Origin: Poseidonibacter parvus
GTDB lineage: Bacteria; Campylobacterota; Campylobacteria; Campylobacterales; Arcobacteraceae
Length of the DNA stretch: 64,000 nt
NCBI RefSeq assembly: GCF_001956695.1
Contig: NZ_CP019070.1
Location: 2,480,001-2,544,000 of the forward strand
Reading direction: 5' to 3'
Within the stretch, counting starts at the first letter, position 1. Each line of letters starts with the position of its first letter. The notes under the pieces are model-generated. The model ran no database searches. It was not told where the DNA came from and saw only the letters and a program-made list of their open reading frames with translations. Positions 2,045 through 48,196 of this stretch are shown piece after piece. The position numbers and the translations under genes are program-made.

Positions 2045-3022
2045 TTAATTTCTTCGCTGACCTGGCTTTGGTGCCGATACCTCTTTTTGTAAATCAAGGG
2101 ATAAATTATGGTAAAAAAGCTCACCGTAATCTGTAGTTCTATTTATTATCTCATAAGCTTGAACTAATGTATTATTGTATTTTATAGCATCTTGTAGTAT
2201 CTTAATTATCTTAACAGATTCTAAGAAATTCACATGAGATGGGGCTTCTATTGGTGAAGAGTAATACTTATGCATTCTTTCAACTAAGTTTTTATTTCTT
2301 ATTTCAATAAATACAGACTCAATTGGTGATTTAAAAAATAGTATTTTTTGCTTTACATTAATAGATATATATGTTGTTTCCATTCCATATATTTTTCTAG
2401 AAAAAGAATCAAATAAAAAAAGTTTTTTATTATAATTATTATTGAATAATTCATATATAAGTTCAAGTATTTTAATCTTTTCTTCTCTTGAATAAAAATT
2501 TCCAATACTTGCAAAACAAAAAGATAATACTGATTTAATAGAATACCATTCTGTTGTATCATAATCATATCTTAGCATCTGATCAATTCTTCCTTGTTTC
2601 AACTCTTCTATGTCTTTACTAGATTTTGTTCTGTACACTTCTTGTACAGCAGTATCTCTATACATAGGTCCAGGGAACTGTGCTTGAATAACAAATCTTC
2701 TGTTTTGTTCTAGTTCCATGATGTATTTTAAACGCCCATAATAGTCTTCATCTATAATTCGCACCTCTTTTTGAGGTATTTGAGTAATTGATTTTAAAAA
2801 CTCATCACTATGACAACCCTCTTCCCAAATATAATCAGGATATCTAAATATATTACAAATTTTATCTTTAATTTCATTACTTGGTTCAATATCTGTAACA
2901 TTATCAATCCACGATGTAACAGTTCTTCTATCTTTATTAATAAGTGATGCAAATTTTGAAATACTAAGATTTGACCTTTTAAATATTTCAATAAATTTAT
3001 CAATAGAGTTTTTATAATTCAT
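2045..3022 (-). CDS. HTH-domain protein of unknown function, divergent from the prp operon
   Basis: A 325-residue protein I do not recognise as a named family. I chose the start at 3022 because AAGAAGG sits 6 bases upstream; the reading frame stays open further up to 3100 but has no ribosome site there. Residues about 5-40 resemble an XRE/Cro-type helix-turn-helix (LSISKFASLINKDRRTVTSW). The rest is mixed alpha/beta with no clear catalytic motif; the arrangement of HTH plus a large unknown domain suggests a ligand-sensing regulator. It is transcribed away from prpB, with about 175 bases between them. Two TTGTAC boxes 30 bases apart flank its own TATAAT. Control of prp is a hypothesis, not something the sequence proves. 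Confidence 0.7.
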   Translation of the reverse strand: MNYKNSIDKFIEIFKRSNLSISKFASLINKDRRTVTSWIDNVTDIEPSNEIKDKICNIFRYPDYIWEEGCHSDEFLKSITQIPQKEVRIIDEDYYGRLKYIMELEQNRRFVIQAQFPGPMYRDTAVQEVYRTKSSKDIEELKQGRIDQMLRYDYDTTEWYSIKSVLSFCFASIGNFYSREEKIKILELIYELFNNNYNKKLFLFDSFSRKIYGMETTYISINVKQKILFFKSPIESVFIEIRNKNLVERMHKYYSSPIEAPSHVNFLESVKIIKILQDAIKYNNTLVQAYEIINRTTDYGELFYHNLSLDLQKEVSAPKPGQRRN

Positions 3023-3052
3023 CATTAACCTTCTTATTATCTTTAACAATAA

Positions 3053-3088
3053 TTGTACCATTATAAAACATAAAAACAAATATTGTAC
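3053..3088. promoter_or_regulatory. Repeated TTGTAC boxes around the HTH-gene promoter
   Basis: TTGTAC occurs at 3053-3058 and again at 3083-3088, each followed by a similar ATTAT-like stretch, with 30 bases between matching positions. The minus-strand TATAAT (3060-3065) of the HTH gene lies between them. Direct repeats spaced by about three helical turns around a promoter are what an autoregulatory operator often looks like. This is inference from pattern only. Confidence 0.4.
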
Positions 3089-3162
3089 ATTATGAGACAA
3101 TTGATGAAAAAGTTGCTATTTATAAAACAAAAATCATACAACAGCATAATCTATTAATGATG

Positions 3163-12233: not shown

Positions 12234-14336
12234 CTAAGATCTTGATTTTACAGTAATTTTTTTAATATCAAAAAGCTCTTTTGCTCTATTTAACATAGGA
12301 GAATTAATAATATCATTTAATTGTAATTCTTGTTGTGCAGGAGTTTGAACTGCACTTTTATGCATATCAGCAACACAACCTGAACTCATTTCAACTTCTT
12401 CAATCATTGAACCTGATTCATTTTGGGTATTTACATTTTGATTTATTTCTTCTTTAATATCCTCGTTAACTTCTTCAACTTTTTTAATAGCTTCTTTTTT
12501 TAACTCAACGGAGGCTTCATCCTTTTTAAAATCTAACTCAACATCGTTTCCATAAACATCTTGGGCAAAGGTTCTAATTAATGCAAAGTGCTTATATAAA
12601 AACTTTCTATCTTCATCTTTAGCATAAGAAATAATTGATAATTTATTGTTTTCATAACCATTAAAGATAAAGTTTTTTTCAAAACACTCTCCTAAAGAGT
12701 AGTCTCTATCATAAACCTTTGATGTAAGTTGTTCATACATTTCATCTTTTTCTTCCATTTGTGGTTCATCAATGGGTACAACTTCAACTTCTTGAGATAT
12801 ATTAACTTCTTTATGCTCTTGAACAATTGGTTCTATTTGAACTTCTGCTGAAACTACAGGTGCTACTTCATTGAGATTTTTAACTTCTTTTTTTTCATTT
12901 GAATTTGTGTCTGTATTTATATTTGATAATGTCTCTTCTTTACTTGTAGGCAAATCATCAAAAGGTGTTGGATATGAAACTTCAGGAATTGAATCAATTA
13001 CAGATAAATCAACCATTGAAGTGCTTTCAATTAAAACTTTATCAGCTTCATTTACCTCTTCAATCTTTGTTTCTGGAATGTTTTCCATAATTTCTTCAGT
13101 CATATTACTTTCAAAAGGATTAGATTCAATTACCTCAGGCTTAGGTTCTTGTTGTGTTTTTATTACCTGAGGAGTTTTTTCAACTAATTTTTCAACTGGC
13201 TTTTCTACTACTTCTTCTATCGGCTTTTGTATTATTTTCTCAACTGGCTTTTGTTCAGCTTTTGGTTTAATATCTTCAACTTGTGAAATTATTTCTTCAA
13301 TTGTTTTAATATTTGTAGCTTCAATCATCTTCATTAAAGTTAAAATAAGAACAAAGCCACCATCAGAGTTAATCGATAAAAGATGCTTAGCATCTCCTAT
13401 TATTCTAAAAAATCTATCAAATAAAAGTAAATCAAATCTTGCATCTTTTTCAAGCATTTTATGTTTTAAATAAATTGACATTTCATCACATACTTGTGAT
13501 ACATCATAATTTTCTAAATCTTTAATTATAGGTGTAATATCAGCTTTATTTAGAACTATTGTAAATACATTATCCATTACTTTTGGGTCTATTAAACCTA
13601 ACATGTCAACTACAGTTGCTGTTGTAATTCTTCCACGCGAGAAAATAATAGCTTGGTCTAATAACGTTAGTGTATCTCTTAAGCTTCCCTGACCGCTTCT
13701 TGCAACAATTTCTAATGCATCTGTATCAAATTCAATATTTTCTTCATTTAAAATATGTGATAAATGATGAGTTACATCTGTATCTGATATTTTATTAAAT
13801 CTAAAATGCTGAGTTCTTGAAAGAATTGTTGCAGGTAATTTAAGTGGATCTGTAGTTGCAAGTATAAACTTTACAAATCCAGGAGGTTCTTCAAGTGTTT
13901 TTAAAAGAGCATTGAAAGCTTGAGTAGTAAGCATATGAACTTCATCGATTATAAATACTTTAAATCGTGCAGAGCTTGGTTTGTATTTTGTATGTTCAAT
14001 TAAATCTTTAATATCATCAATACCTCTATTTGAAGCAGCATCCATTTCAATTACATCTAGATGTCTATTTGCATTTGAGCTAACACAGTTATCGCAAACT
14101 TCACAAGGTTTTGAAGTTGGACCATTTGAGCATAAAAGTGCTTTTGCCATAATTCTAGCAGTTGAAGTTTTACCACTTCCTCTTAAACCTGAAAAAAGAT
14201 AAGCATGTGATAATCTATTTGAATCTAATGCCAAAGATAAAGTTTGAGAAACAGTACTTTGACCTACTAAATCTTCAAATCTATGAGGTCTATATTTTAA
14301 AGCTAATACTTTTGTCTCTTGTCTTAATTCACTCAT
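12234..14336 (-). CDS. dnaX: DNA polymerase III subunit gamma/tau
   Basis: Clamp-loader ATPase of 700 residues. It has Walker A GLRGSGKT (50-57), zinc-binding cysteines C69/C78/C81/C84, the DEVHML Walker B and the LSRTQHF sensor region. Residues about 370-570 form an acidic, low-complexity linker with several KPVEK/KPIEE-like units, followed by a C-terminal tau-like domain. I start at 14336 because its ATG overlaps the murI stop as ATGA, whereas the alternative ATG at 14345 nearly touches the AGGA. An A8 run at codons 481-483 (12888-12895) could allow slippage to a short gamma-like form. Confidence 0.95.
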   Translation of the reverse strand: MSELRQETKVLALKYRPHRFEDLVGQSTVSQTLSLALDSNRLSHAYLFSGLRGSGKTSTARIMAKALLCSNGPTSKPCEVCDNCVSSNANRHLDVIEMDAASNRGIDDIKDLIEHTKYKPSSARFKVFIIDEVHMLTTQAFNALLKTLEEPPGFVKFILATTDPLKLPATILSRTQHFRFNKISDTDVTHHLSHILNEENIEFDTDALEIVARSGQGSLRDTLTLLDQAIIFSRGRITTATVVDMLGLIDPKVMDNVFTIVLNKADITPIIKDLENYDVSQVCDEMSIYLKHKMLEKDARFDLLLFDRFFRIIGDAKHLLSINSDGGFVLILTLMKMIEATNIKTIEEIISQVEDIKPKAEQKPVEKIIQKPIEEVVEKPVEKLVEKTPQVIKTQQEPKPEVIESNPFESNMTEEIMENIPETKIEEVNEADKVLIESTSMVDLSVIDSIPEVSYPTPFDDLPTSKEETLSNINTDTNSNEKKEVKNLNEVAPVVSAEVQIEPIVQEHKEVNISQEVEVVPIDEPQMEEKDEMYEQLTSKVYDRDYSLGECFEKNFIFNGYENNKLSIISYAKDEDRKFLYKHFALIRTFAQDVYGNDVELDFKKDEASVELKKEAIKKVEEVNEDIKEEINQNVNTQNESGSMIEEVEMSSGCVADMHKSAVQTPAQQELQLNDIINSPMLNRAKELFDIKKITVKSRS
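12888..12895 (-). promoter_or_regulatory. dnaX: A8 slippery run inside dnaX
   Basis: On the coding strand the codons GAA AAA AAA GAA contain eight consecutive A. A -1 ribosomal shift, or a transcript with one extra A, would read AGA AGT TAA and stop at once, giving about 485 residues that keep the ATPase and collar domains but lose the tau tail. Thermus and E. coli make gamma by comparable slippage. No stimulatory hairpin was seen. Confidence 0.4.
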
Positions 14337-15130
14337 ATATTGCATTTCCTAATTATAATTTTATTTTTATATTCACTTTTTTCAAATATTTTATTTATCA
14401 TATTTTCATTAATATCATCTGTGGCATAGATTGTAATATCTAATGAACCTTCGTTAACATGACCTTTTTTACTACTTAGATCTATTAATCTTTTTGCAAT
14501 TGCTAAACCAGTTTGAATTACTGTAATATCATATTTCATAATATTTTTGATTTGTTTTTCAATTAATGGATAATGAGTACAACCTAAAACAATTGTATCA
14601 ACATTATATTCTATCATTGGCTTTAACCAAGATTCCAACATTGAATAAGTTAACTTTGAATCAGTTTGTCCTTTTTCAATTTGTTCAACTAATCCAGGGC
14701 AAGCTTGCTCATATAATTTAACTTTTTTATTCTCAAATAATTCATTAACAAGCAATTGATATTTATCACCTTTTAATGTAGCAGGAGTTGCTAAAACTCC
14801 AATATTATTTGTCTTCGTAGCTTCAATTGCAGGTTTAATACCAGGTTCTGTTCCTACTAAAATTAGCTTTGGAAATTTTTCTCTTAAATGTTTAACAGCA
14901 GCAGAAGTTGCAGTATTACAAGCAATAATTAAAGCTGATATTTGATGTTCTTTTATTAGAAATTCTGTTATATCAATACTACGCTTTAAAATCTGTTCTT
15001 GTGTCTTTTGTCCATAAGGTGCATATTTTGTATCAGCTACATAAAAAAGTTTTGCACCTTTAAATACTTCTGTTATAGAAGATACAACTGTTAATCCACC
15101 TAAACCAGAATCAAATACTCCAACTTTCAA
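14333..15130 (-). CDS. murI: Glutamate racemase
   Basis: Converts L- to D-glutamate for peptidoglycan. The 265-residue protein has both catalytic cysteines in their expected contexts: IIACNTATSAA near residue 70 and VLGCTHYPLIE near 180, plus the opening GVFDSGLGGLTV and YVADTKYAPYG. It is the first gene of the long minus-strand group and its stop overlaps the dnaX start by ATGA, implying translational coupling. Assignment is secure. Confidence 0.97.
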   Translation of the reverse strand: MKVGVFDSGLGGLTVVSSITEVFKGAKLFYVADTKYAPYGQKTQEQILKRSIDITEFLIKEHQISALIIACNTATSAAVKHLREKFPKLILVGTEPGIKPAIEATKTNNIGVLATPATLKGDKYQLLVNELFENKKVKLYEQACPGLVEQIEKGQTDSKLTYSMLESWLKPMIEYNVDTIVLGCTHYPLIEKQIKNIMKYDITVIQTGLAIAKRLIDLSSKKGHVNEGSLDITIYATDDINENMINKIFEKSEYKNKIIIRKCNI

Positions 15131-15215
15131 ATAAAACCTTAATATTATTTTTTAGATTATATCTAAATATGTTAAAATTCAATTAAAATTTTGTTTACCC
15201 AAAAGGTTGGTTTTC

Positions 15216-15878
15216 ATGTTTCATCATTTTCATCCATATGAGCCATTTATAAAAGAAGATACTAAAAAACTAATAGTAGGAACACTACCTCCTCCTAGAT
15301 TTTGTACAAAAGCGTATAAAGTAAATGATGTAGATTTTTGTTATGGTTCACAAGATGGATTATTATGGAAAGCTTTAGATGTAATTTTTGATTTAAAACT
15401 AGAATATTTAAATACAAAAGATGAAGTTACAAAAAGAAAAAACTTTTTAATAAAAGAAAAAATAGGGGTTTGTGATATTGTTAATTCTTGTAAAAGAGAA
15501 AAAATTGATGCAAGTGATTTAGGAATGAGTGAAGTTGAACTGCGTGATATTTTAAAATATATTAAAGAATTTAAAAACATTGAGACTATTATTTTTACAG
15601 GAGGAAATAGTAAGAATGGTCCTGAATATTTTTTAAGAAAAATTCTAAAAGAAAAAAATATAAAATTTATGCAAACTTCAAAAGAAATTCCAAAAGTTCA
15701 TGAATTTAGTTTTGACAATAGAGTAATTAAAACAATAAGTTTAACCTCTCCTTCAAATGCAGCAAATAGATTTATTGGTTCAAATTCTTTGTATAAAGAA
15801 AATAAGATTAAAAATCCTGCTTATACTACTTTTGATTTTAGAGTTGAGCAATATGAAAAAGTTTTCAAATGCTATTAA
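15216..15878 (+). CDS. Uracil-DNA-glycosylase-superfamily protein
   Basis: A 220-residue protein whose opening LIVGTLPPPRF and downstream GSQDGLLWKALDVIF fit the glycosylase fold, with a second-motif-like SLTSPSNAANR near the C terminus. This suggests base-excision repair, but I cannot place it in a numbered UDG family. The ATG at 15216 is favoured: AAAAGG lies 9 bases upstream, whereas the in-frame TTG at 15207 abuts it. Its 3' end overlaps the convergent desaturase by 14 bases. It could be a diverged relative without glycosylase activity. Confidence 0.55.
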   Translation: MFHHFHPYEPFIKEDTKKLIVGTLPPPRFCTKAYKVNDVDFCYGSQDGLLWKALDVIFDLKLEYLNTKDEVTKRKNFLIKEKIGVCDIVNSCKREKIDASDLGMSEVELRDILKYIKEFKNIETIIFTGGNSKNGPEYFLRKILKEKNIKFMQTSKEIPKVHEFSFDNRVIKTISLTSPSNAANRFIGSNSLYKENKIKNPAYTTFDFRVEQYEKVFKCY

Positions 15879-17030
15879 CTTTTAAAAGTTTAGTTTTTCC
15901 AACCATAAGTTCGATTGTCATATACATTCTTTTAAAAACACTTTCTTGTCTATATTCTAAGTTATGCTTTTTACATAAATCTTTTATAAGTGGTTGAAGC
16001 TTTTGATATTGACTTAGAGGTAAGTTTGGGAAAAGGTGATGTTCTATTTGATAGTTTAACCATCCATGTCCAAAATCAATTAAATTACTTCCTGTGTTGT
16101 AGTTTACACTTCCCATAATCTGTCTTAAGTAAAACTCACCTTGTGATTTATGAGGAGTATCAAACCTATATATATCTTCTGCTGAATGATTTGGAACAAT
16201 TACTAAAAATGAGTGTAAGTTTGCAATATATTCAGCTATTAATGTAATAATAAAAACATTAAATACTGCTTCTAAACCTAATGGTAAAAATAGAAAAGGT
16301 ATTAGTATAAATTTAACAGAAAAATATGGAAGTATATATTGTTTCCATAAAATTGCACCATTCTTTTTAAATGGACTTACTTCATAAGATTTAACTTCTT
16401 CTAGTTTTAACTTACGTCTTTTTTTATTCTCTAATATTTTCAAAGTATTTGGAGCATAATACGTAAGCTTCCAAGTTCCAGCAAAAGCATAAACAAAAAC
16501 ATATCTTAACCACATAGGAGTTTTTGATTGAATTAACCATTGCAAGTTATTCTCAACATTATCAGGATCTTCATCTTCCCCTAAATGATAGTGGTGCATA
16601 ATATTATGCTCATGAATCCAAGCTTCAGGTTTAATCCAATCTAACCAGTCAAGATATCTTCTATTGTCTTTGGCAAATCCAGCTTTTGTATATCTAAAAG
16701 GAATTCCAGGAACTTTATCATATGCACCATGAAGTATAGGATGAGCAACATTAGCCCATCTTGATACATTTCCAACTGCAATTAAAGTTGCTGAAAATAG
16801 TGCTAGAATCCAGAAAAGAAATCCACTTAAAGCAAAAGATGATATTTCTAAAAAGCTTATAAGAGCTACAAGTCCATAGCCAGAAAAGTACAAGCCCTTC
16901 CCCAACGTTCTAGTTTTAGTAAATGTAAGAAGTCATCATAAGTACTTCCGTTTAAACTTTTTTTTACTTCGTCAATATCTTTTTTAAGTTGATTTTTATC
17001 AATATCTTTATAGTTTGCATAGGTACTCAA
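15865..17030 (-). pseudogene. Fatty-acid desaturase with an apparent one-base frameshift
   Basis: Membrane di-iron desaturase. The frame 15865-16905 holds the membrane segments and histidine boxes (HPILHGAYD, HEHNIMHHYH, QIEHHLFP) but has no ATG and a stop just upstream. Another frame from a TTG at 17028-17030, which has AGGA 6 bases upstream, encodes a fitting N terminus ending LLKLERWGRACTF. It runs into a stop unless one T is added in the TTTT at 16884-16887; it would then join as ACTF-SGYGLVALISF, giving about 388 residues, a normal length. So the gene is either broken, subject to slippage, or carries a sequencing error. The substrate chain and bond position are unknown. Confidence 0.75.
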
Positions 17031-17080
17031 TAATTTTCCTGAAATAAGTTTTTGTAATAAGTTTTGATTTAAATAGTTAT

Positions 17081-17105
17081 AAAAAGTAGCCTAAAGCTAC
17101 TTTTT
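17081..17105. terminator. Terminator after rho
   Basis: AAAAAGTAGC and GCTACTTTTT form a 10-bp stem with a CTAAA loop; the T run on the minus strand overlaps the end of rho. It separates rho from the desaturase. Confidence 0.85.
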
Positions 17106-18426
17106 ATTCATTCATTCCAGCGAAGAATTCAGCGTTGTTTTTAGTTTTTTGCATTTTTGAATAAAGAAATTTTAAAGCTTCAACTTCATCCATTGAAGCA
17201 ATTGCATTTCTTAAAATCCATGTTTTTTGTAAAATTTCTGGAGAAAGAAGTAATTCTTCTTTTCTTGTTCCTGATTTGATAATATCTAAAGCAGGATATA
17301 CTCTTTTGTTAGCCGCATTTCTTGATAATACAACTTCAGAGTTTCCAGTACCCTTAAACTCTTCAAAAATAACTTCATCCATTTTTGAACCAGTTTCAAT
17401 AAGTGCAGTAGAAATAATAGTTAAACTTCCACCCTCTTCAATATTTCTAGCAGCCCCAAAGAACCTTTTTGGTTTATGTAAAGCATTTGCATCAACTCCA
17501 CCTGAAAGCACTTTTCCAGAAGATGGTGTAACAGTATTATAAGCACGAGCAAGTCTTGTAATAGAATCAAGTAAGATAACTACATCTTTTTTCATTTCAA
17601 CAAGTCTTTTTGCTTTTTCAATAACAATTTCAGCAACTCTTACGTGATTTTGAGCAGGTAAATCAAAAGTAGAAGAATAAACCTCACCTTTTACAGATCT
17701 TTGCATATCTGTAACTTCTTCTGGTCTTTCATCAATTAATAAAACCATCAAAGTAGCTTCAGGATGGTTTTTAGAAATACCATGAGCTAAATCTTTTAAA
17801 AGTTCAGTTTTACCAGTTTTTGGAGGTGCAACAATTAATCCTCTTTGACCTTTACCCATTGGAGCAAATAAATCAAGCATTCTTCCTGTCATTCTTTTTG
17901 AATCATATTCAAATTTAAATCTTTCTGTAGAATATAGAGGTGTTAAGTTATCAAATAATGGTCTATTTTTTGATTCTTTTATTGGTAAGTAATTAATTGC
18001 TTCAATTTTTAATAAAGCATTATATTTTTCACTATCTTTATTAGGAGGTCTAACTTGTCCTGAAACAATATCCCCTGTTCTTAATGCAAACTTTCTAATT
18101 TGAGTAGCACTTACATAAGAATCATTTGATGTATCAGAGAAGTTTCCATCAATTGCACGAAGGAATCCAAATCCACCATCTTTAATCTCAAGAATTCCAG
18201 TGAATAAGATAAATCCACCAGCATCAATTTGAGATTTTAAAATGTTAAACATTAAATCTTGTCTTTTTAATTCTTGAGGGTTTTCTACATCTAATTCTTT
18301 TGCAATATTTAAAAGTTCTTCTAATGTAAGTTCTCTTAACTGCTCGATTTTATAACCTTCTACAGGTACGTGAGTTCTAGCTTTTCTAGGACTTTTAGTT
18401 TTATTCTGAGTTTTTGACTCTTCCAT
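17104..18426 (-). CDS. rho: Transcription termination factor Rho
   Basis: Hexameric RNA-dependent ATPase that releases transcripts. The 440 residues contain the N-terminal helical region, the cold-shock-like RNA-binding domain ([12 protein letters not shown] and following), Walker A in [15 protein letters not shown], Walker [17 protein letters not shown], and the R-loop region [14 protein letters not shown]. The protein begins with a basic stretch rich in K/R. It is monocistronic by appearance: about 140 bases of leader before it and a hairpin after it. Confidence 0.98.
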
Positions 18427-18567
18427 AAGTAATTTTTGCCTTTTTGATTGTACATTTAAGTATGTAATTTGTAGTTTTTTTGTAGTTTTCTATTAAGTAT
18501 TATCGATATTGTAGTGTGAATTTTAAAATTTGTCAATAATTTTGACCTTTTATAAAATTAAAGACAT

Positions 18568-18602
18568 AAAAAAAGCTATCAATATATATTGATAGCTTTT
18601 TT
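18568..18602. terminator. Terminator after the peroxiredoxin gene
   Basis: A perfect inverted repeat (AAAAAAGCTATCAATAT and its complement) followed by a T run on both strands; it ends the peroxiredoxin transcript and separates it from the rho leader. Confidence 0.85.
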
Positions 18603-18621
18603 ATTTAATTAAAAATGATTA

Positions 18622-19218
18622 TTATAAATCACCCTCATGTTTTCCTAAGTATTCTGCAACACCTTCAGTTGAAGCTTTCATACCTTCGTCACCTTTTGAC
18701 CAACCAGCAGGACAAACTTCACCATGCTCATTAGTAAATAACATTGTATCTACCATTCTGATCATTTCGTCAATGTTTCTTCCTAATGGTAAATCATTAA
18801 CTACAGAGTGTCTAACAGTTCCATCTGCATCAATTAAGAAAGAACCTCTTAATGCAACAGCTTCACCAAATAATACATCGTAATCTTTTGAAATTTGTTT
18901 TGAAAGGTCAGCAACTAATGGGTATTTAATTCTTCCAATTCCACCATTATTTACATCAGTTTCTCTCCATGCAAAGTGAGAAAATTGTGAATCAACAGAA
19001 ACACCAATAACATTAACACCTCTTGAAGTAAACTCTTCGATTCTTTTTGAGAAAGCAATAATTTCAGATGGACATACAAAAGTAAAGTCTAATGGGTAGA
19101 AAAATAATACTGCACCTTTTTCTCCAATATTTTCATATAAATTAAAATCTGCTACTATTTGACCGTCTGCAAGTACAGCTGTTGCTGTAAAATCTGGAGC
19201 TTTTTTTGTTACTAACAT
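18622..19218 (-). CDS. 2-Cys peroxiredoxin (AhpC/Prx type)
   Basis: Reduces hydrogen peroxide and alkyl peroxides in the cytoplasm. The 198-residue protein has the peroxidatic cysteine in DFTFVCPSEI (about residue 50) and the resolving cysteine in GEVCPAGW near the C terminus, the pattern of typical 2-Cys peroxiredoxins. It is often labelled AhpC or TsaA in this group; the electron donor is probably thioredoxin. AAGGA precedes the ATG. It is divergent from the ferredoxin gene across a 301-base AT-rich region, and appears to be a single-gene transcript. Confidence 0.94.
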   Translation of the reverse strand: MLVTKKAPDFTATAVLADGQIVADFNLYENIGEKGAVLFFYPLDFTFVCPSEIIAFSKRIEEFTSRGVNVIGVSVDSQFSHFAWRETDVNNGGIGRIKYPLVADLSKQISKDYDVLFGEAVALRGSFLIDADGTVRHSVVNDLPLGRNIDEMIRMVDTMLFTNEHGEVCPAGWSKGDEGMKASTEGVAEYLGKHEGDL

Positions 19219-19519
19219 ATATATTCCTTTTATTTTTGTTTAATTTTTTTGTATTGACATTATATAACAAATATTATAAATAAAAACTACAAATTAGCTT
19301 AAATTCTAAAATTTATAAAAAATTTTATTCTTTGATAATTTTTATCTTTTGTTTGCTATAATAATGAGTTCTTTATACACGAAATTAACTATTATTTTTT
19401 ACATTTATTTAATTGTTTCAATTTTACTAATTTTTCTATTAATATTGATAATATATCTATTTTAAAGATAATTTTATAATTTGTGTGATAAAGTTTTTTA
19501 AAATTAAAAGGAGTTATAT
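19219..19519. promoter_or_regulatory. Divergent promoter region, peroxiredoxin/ferredoxin
   Basis: This gene-free stretch is extremely AT-rich. On the plus strand TATAAT occurs at 19357-19362 and at 19475-19480, the latter about 40 bases ahead of the ferredoxin ATG with AAGGAG in between. On the minus strand TATAAT (19259-19264) lies 41 bases upstream of the peroxiredoxin. A loosely symmetric TTATAAT/TTATATAA near 19259-19280 recalls a PerR site but is not convincing. No tRNA-like fold or open frame was seen. Confidence 0.5.
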
Positions 19520-19795
19520 ATGGCAGTAATAATTACAGATATTTGTATTAGTTGTGATGCATGTTTAGACGAGTGTCCTACAGAATCAATTGTAGACAAT
19601 GATGAGAACCCAACAGGTGAAGATATTTATTATGTAAACCCAGAAACATGTACTGAGTGTATTGGTGATAATGATGCACCTGCATGTGCAGACGCATGTC
19701 CTACTGAAGGATGTATTCAATGGGATAATAGAGATTCAGCAGCTAATCCAGTTAGAGATGGAAAAACAGCTGGTGAACCTTGTGTTGAAGACTAA
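19520..19795 (+). CDS. 2[4Fe-4S] ferredoxin (YfhL-like)
   Basis: A 91-residue electron carrier. The first cluster motif is CISCDACLDECPTES; the second is CTECIGDNDAPACADACPTEGC, with the extended spacing between its second and third cysteines that marks the YfhL/Allochromatium type. These ferredoxins have unusually low and separated potentials. The gene stands alone between its own promoter and a strong terminator, implying independent, probably high, expression. The redox partner cannot be told from the context. Confidence 0.92.
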   Translation: MAVIITDICISCDACLDECPTESIVDNDENPTGEDIYYVNPETCTECIGDNDAPACADACPTEGCIQWDNRDSAANPVRDGKTAGEPCVED

Positions 19796-47953: not shown

Positions 47954-48196
47954 TTAAAGTGCATGAACCTCATACATATACTCATCATCAGCTAATCCAT
48001 ATTTTACTTCTCTAAAATATACGTTCACACCTTCATCTTCTAAAGCATCAACTAATGCCATCATGTCTTTATGTGAATTATCTCTATCAAAATAGAATAT
48101 TTTTTCACCATCTTTTTGTAAATCTTCTTTAATCTTATCTAGTTGGACTTTTTTAGGTTTTTCACTTAATTCAGTTCTTGCAAATAATAATTCCAT
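47954..48196 (-). CDS. HP0268-family small protein (putative nuclease)
   Basis: An 80-residue protein matching the length and pattern of Helicobacter pylori HP0268, a small Smr-like fold described as having nicking and RNase activity. The shared core is IFYFDRDNSHKDMMALVDAL followed by an EYMYEVHAL end. HP0268-like genes lie beside miaB in this phylum, as here. Family membership is from recall of the motif; activity in this organism is not shown by the sequence. Confidence 0.7.
   Translation of the reverse strand: MELLFARTELSEKPKKVQLDKIKEDLQKDGEKIFYFDRDNSHKDMMALVDALEDEGVNVYFREVKYGLADDEYMYEVHAL

Follow-up and report, generated by a model that had tools for sequence, protein, structure and literature searches.

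The window analyzed here, a stretch of 64,000 nucleotides with a GC content of 27.8%, covers positions 2,480,001–2,544,000 of the single-contig genome of Poseidonibacter parvus (2,866,429 bases). On its minus strand, two overlapping reading frames encode the two parts of a fatty-acid desaturase. The main desaturase piece (15865–16905) is an ORF of 346 amino acids, the frame of which is open for 355 amino acids from stop to stop. It contains the first histidine box HPILH (16729–16743), in which both histidines and the proline are invariant in alignment A1, as well as the second, HEHNIMHHYH (16585–16614), and the third, QIEHH (16036–16050), both recognized in the sequence and in A1. A TTG opens this ORF, which lacks both an ATG and any ribosome-binding-like motif and is without a credible start of its own. 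Inspection of the sequence agrees here with an earlier note on this DNA, which had described the frame as holding all histidine boxes with neither an ATG nor a ribosome site.

The N-terminal desaturase piece (16866–17030, minus strand) starts at TTG 17030–17028 and comprises 54 codons. An AGGA resembling a Shine-Dalgarno motif (17037–17040) lies six bases upstream of this TTG, and in a DNA alignment a comparable purine-rich motif occurs at this position in most of 14 relatives, picked from loci already collected. The frame reads ...LERWGRACTFLAMDL and then reaches the stop codon TAG 16868–16866. A frame ending in LERWGRACTF had been reported by the earlier note; the frame exists, but that quotation stops at ...ACTF while the frame runs on to the TAG. 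A run of eight As on the minus strand (16958–16965) lies within the N-terminal frame and, as judged from the DNA alignment, leaves it unbroken. The point of frame change is the TTTT at 16884–16887.

The upstream neighbor of the two pieces is rho (17104–18426). At the other end, an ORF in reverse orientation on the plus strand (15207–15878) covers the last 14 bases of the desaturase. This ORF weakly matches the DNA-deoxyinosine glycosylase profile TIGR04274 (41.8 bits, where the cut-off is 80), and no counterpart of it was found at the locus of the intact orthologue L014.

Family membership and distribution in the genus

The main piece matches the fatty-acid desaturase family PF00487 (FA_desaturase) over its residues 32–320 with 94.1 bits against a cut-off of 29.7 (E 1.5e-26), and this profile score above the curated cut-off together with the three histidine boxes places the gene in the family. 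Searched alone, the 54-amino-acid piece gave no PF00487 match. It is identical to residues 4–52 of L014 at 40 of 49 positions (82%; E 6e-28 in a single comparison), and in view of this identity it is not a chance frame; the claim that the second frame, starting at the TTG behind the AGGA, encodes the missing N terminus is thereby borne out. The main piece aligns with residues 47–391 of L014, with 301 of 345 positions identical (87%). The P. parvus genome yielded no further PF00487 locus.

A more specific assignment was sought in other collections. The NCBIfam model NF052549 (Delta(10) desaturase DesB) matched weakly, with 21.7 bits for the main piece and 25.1 bits for the intact L014, neither of which reaches the curated cut-off of 500 bits; the intact copies L015 and L068 gave no match to this model. 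A sequence search of the PDB returned no match at E 0.01. A fold search gave two weak matches (E 1.4e-4 and 6e-4, TM about 0.48) to chains of the Orf2971-FtsHi and Ycf2-FtsHi complexes, and a third to the alkane monooxygenase FtAlkB (E 0.048). Searches of the published literature on the species and strain, and on Arcobacter with fatty acid desaturase, showed nothing on this gene and no sequencing method for the strain among the papers listed. The gene is an ordinary membrane fatty-acid desaturase that is common in the genus.

Among ten genomes of the genus searched, including that of P. parvus, the gene is present in seven and absent from three. In the six congeners with a copy it forms one open frame of 399–417 amino acids, while no desaturase was found in G002 (rated 100% complete), G004 (88%) and G008 (86%). 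A wider search across 60 genomes from the genus, its family and its order, P. parvus among them, gave a match in 10. The desaturase gene looks dispensable, as three of the nine congeners are without a copy, one of them rated 100% complete. The P. parvus genome also contains a FabA/FabZ-family gene (147-amino-acid frame) and a gene of the nitronate-monooxygenase family (369-amino-acid open frame), which may be the FabX of Campylobacterota. The latter gene may provide an alternative route to unsaturated fatty acids.

The placement of the gene varies. Within the stretch corresponding to window positions 12234–19795, the desaturase is found next to rho and ahead of murI and dnaX both in P. parvus and in G007, the genome that carries L014. 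In G009 it is located about 0.7 Mb from rho, and G002 has rho and no desaturase; given these differences, the gene has moved or been gained within the genus.

The frame junction in relatives

In the DNA alignment with the 14 relatives, the only gap of the window within the coding part is a single base at TTTT 16887–16884, the site that the earlier note had pointed out. A whole-genome search with the intact L014 protein recovered two pieces in P. parvus and one piece in all six congeners with a copy. We further collected 91 loci with a desaturase core, drawn in part from the best 80 of 339 relatives; two of the loci were P. parvus itself and five were duplicates, leaving 84 distinct relatives. 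The weak paralogues L012 and L013 fell below the threshold of this list. The queries used to fetch the relatives did not contain the upstream piece, hence there was no selection for an intact N terminus.

The frame is open across the junction in 83 of the 84 distinct relatives (drawn in part from the best 80 of 339), as established by pattern for 77 and by eye for 6. In the exception, the metagenome-assembled L073, an in-frame TGA takes the place of the Trp codon of ERWGR, some five codons upstream of the position equivalent to the break, and there is no frameshift. Around positions 2700–3150 of that locus, the desaturase frame is otherwise open apart from the TGA at this conserved codon. L021 starts at a contig end, with the junction still covered, and the frame of L079 is just 248 amino acids long. 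Orthologues that likewise start at the 16905 frame, which the earlier note had named as a refuting result, were looked for among the relatives and none was found. The alignment gap, the one-piece congeners and the open junctions agree on a net difference of one base, and the addition of a single T at the TTTT joins the two frames, as previously proposed. The orthologues are thus intact and the P. parvus copy is broken in frame, as expected of a frameshift pseudogene.

Origin of the frame break

Both pieces are strongly conserved. Compared with its closest copy L003, which has the same sequence as L014 in this region, the core shows a pS of 0.52, a pN of 0.066 and a dN/dS of 0.078. All 16 N-terminal residues that are invariant in 12 relatives are kept in P. 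parvus, whereas 2 of the 187 such residues in the core are changed; in a leave-one-out control with four intact relatives of the 12, 0–3 N-terminal and 0–4 core changes were counted. Selection has not visibly relaxed on either side of the junction, and the break is therefore either very young or not real.

An AlphaFold2 model of the intact L014, based on an alignment of 37 sequences from 77 usable loci, reached a mean pLDDT of 85.3. Its N terminus forms helices at residues 15–28 and 34–66, with block means of 89–96 over residues 11–60. The break corresponds to about residue 52 and falls inside the second of these helices. The model suggests that truncation removes a structured part of the protein, and we infer that the main piece alone would be unlikely to work.

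That the N terminus is dispensable and a shorter protein started near 16905 is a working enzyme is scarcely credible: although all three histidine boxes lie within the main piece, there is no ATG or ribosome site near 16905, and the lost part holds six columns without any variation among the 37 relatives of alignment A1 and is helical at high confidence in the L014 model, in which the break cuts helix 34–66. Ribosomal slippage, by which the ribosome would step back one base on U-UUU and make some full-length enzyme, so that the break would be tolerated or regulatory, is very unlikely. The codons of the N-terminal frame at the break are ACT TTT CTG, and a one-base backward step is needed to enter the downstream frame. 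The tRNA reading UUU (tRNA-Phe) can re-pair one base back on UUUU, and the register found here permits such single re-pairing; the conservation of both pieces would also fit, but is accounted for by recency. The codon before UUU, however, rules out a classical tandem slip, and no examined relative requires a shift, as the orthologues stay in a single frame across the junction; a shift conserved in orthologues, by which programmed frameshifting is recognized, was not found among them. It is a long shot that a slippery UUUU, newly arisen in this lineage, yields a little full-length desaturase, perhaps depending on conditions, leaving an apparent pseudogene that is partly alive. Homopolymer phase variation is known in Campylobacterota, and a reversible change of repeat length at the T4 or the A8 had been raised for this gene. 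The T4 is short, known switching tracts usually exceeding four bases, and no long repeat tract was found at the break. Moreover, runs of four (7,813, counting all four bases) and of eight (78) are common within the in-frame alignments of the P. parvus genome. The A8, named by the earlier note as a second unstable site at about 16960–16967, is indeed present, two bases away at 16965–16958, but it is read in the correct frame and eight As also occur in the intact L028 and L042. We regard on/off switching as a most improbable explanation. Explanations beyond recent mutation or consensus error are improbable in general.

These two explanations were addressed by a frameshift survey, in which 786,429 bases of P. 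parvus were compared with stretches of three congeners totaling 1.98 Mb. Matches were obtained for 561 of the 1,884 reference ORFs, covering 427,214 P. parvus bases of 2.87 Mb, and no convincing frameshift other than that of the desaturase was found in these bases. The survey detected 281 of 360 random simulated one-base deletions (97, 92 and 92 of 120) and thus missed about a fifth. Its output consisted of five candidate rows at four P. parvus places, two of the rows being the desaturase. The three other places looked on reading like ORF-calling artefacts and were dropped: one at window positions 47954–48196 and a further one arose from reference frames extended upstream, in the first case beyond the likely start, and one lay in a stretch that by eye reads as tRNA genes. 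In an earlier survey, 400-kb portions of G003 and of G009 had given only 3 and 2 comparable genes because gene order differs.

In the opposite direction, three candidates came up, each of them in G009, which is also a single contig: one reads as a real break, in another dnaX is split in its C-terminal part, and the third probably does not represent a gene. One more G009 candidate emerged from the comparison of G009 with G003. The C-terminal part of the G009 dnaX (L158) lies in two frames relative to P. parvus, and one internal TGA was reported in each of the dnaX matches of G005 (L155) and G001 (L156). Isolated breaks at about one per few hundred kb are ordinary, for either cause.

It is entirely possible, if short of probable, that the organism carries an intact gene and that one base was lost from the published consensus. 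The break falls on a short homopolymer in a single-contig genome, as would be obtained from long reads, and selection is unrelaxed in both pieces, which carry no further lesion; the absence of other decay would be explained equally well by such an error, which counts against a recent mutation. On the other side stand the survey without another convincing frameshift and thousands of longer runs that are in frame, where a consensus prone to errors should fail first. Within the in-frame alignments, 4,732 homopolymer runs of at least five bases were counted, 533 of them of at least seven, which indicates that indel errors are not abundant in the assembly. The survey leans slightly to a genuine mutation. 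Of the three causes listed by the earlier note, mutation and sequencing error are both retained, with this slight lean, while on/off variation fares poorly against the 7,813 four-base runs read in frame.

Our favored reading, in which we place modest confidence, is that an ordinary desaturase gene now carries a real single-base frameshift. The gene would have been intact until very recently, and the frameshift would have arisen in this strain. Ribosomes starting at TTG 17030 would then produce a 54-amino-acid dead-end peptide and, with no credible start for the catalytic part, little or no active enzyme would be expected. If the frameshift is real, P. parvus has freshly lost the one PF00487 locus that its genome was found to contain, and the case is relevant to membrane fluidity; if it is an error, the annotation would be corrected. 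Neither outcome alters general understanding.

The window gene resembles the intact PF00487 copies of congeners (L014, L015 and L016) in its Pfam match and its three histidine boxes, and its main piece is 87% identical to L014; those copies are in one frame, whereas the window gene is split in this record. With frameshifted pseudogenes and with genes fragmented by consensus errors alike, it has in common that a single base breaks the frame of a gene conserved in all other respects. Gene-fragmenting consensus errors are named as a problem in the abstract of PMC12007338; the frame break described here differs in being isolated within the 427 kb surveyed.
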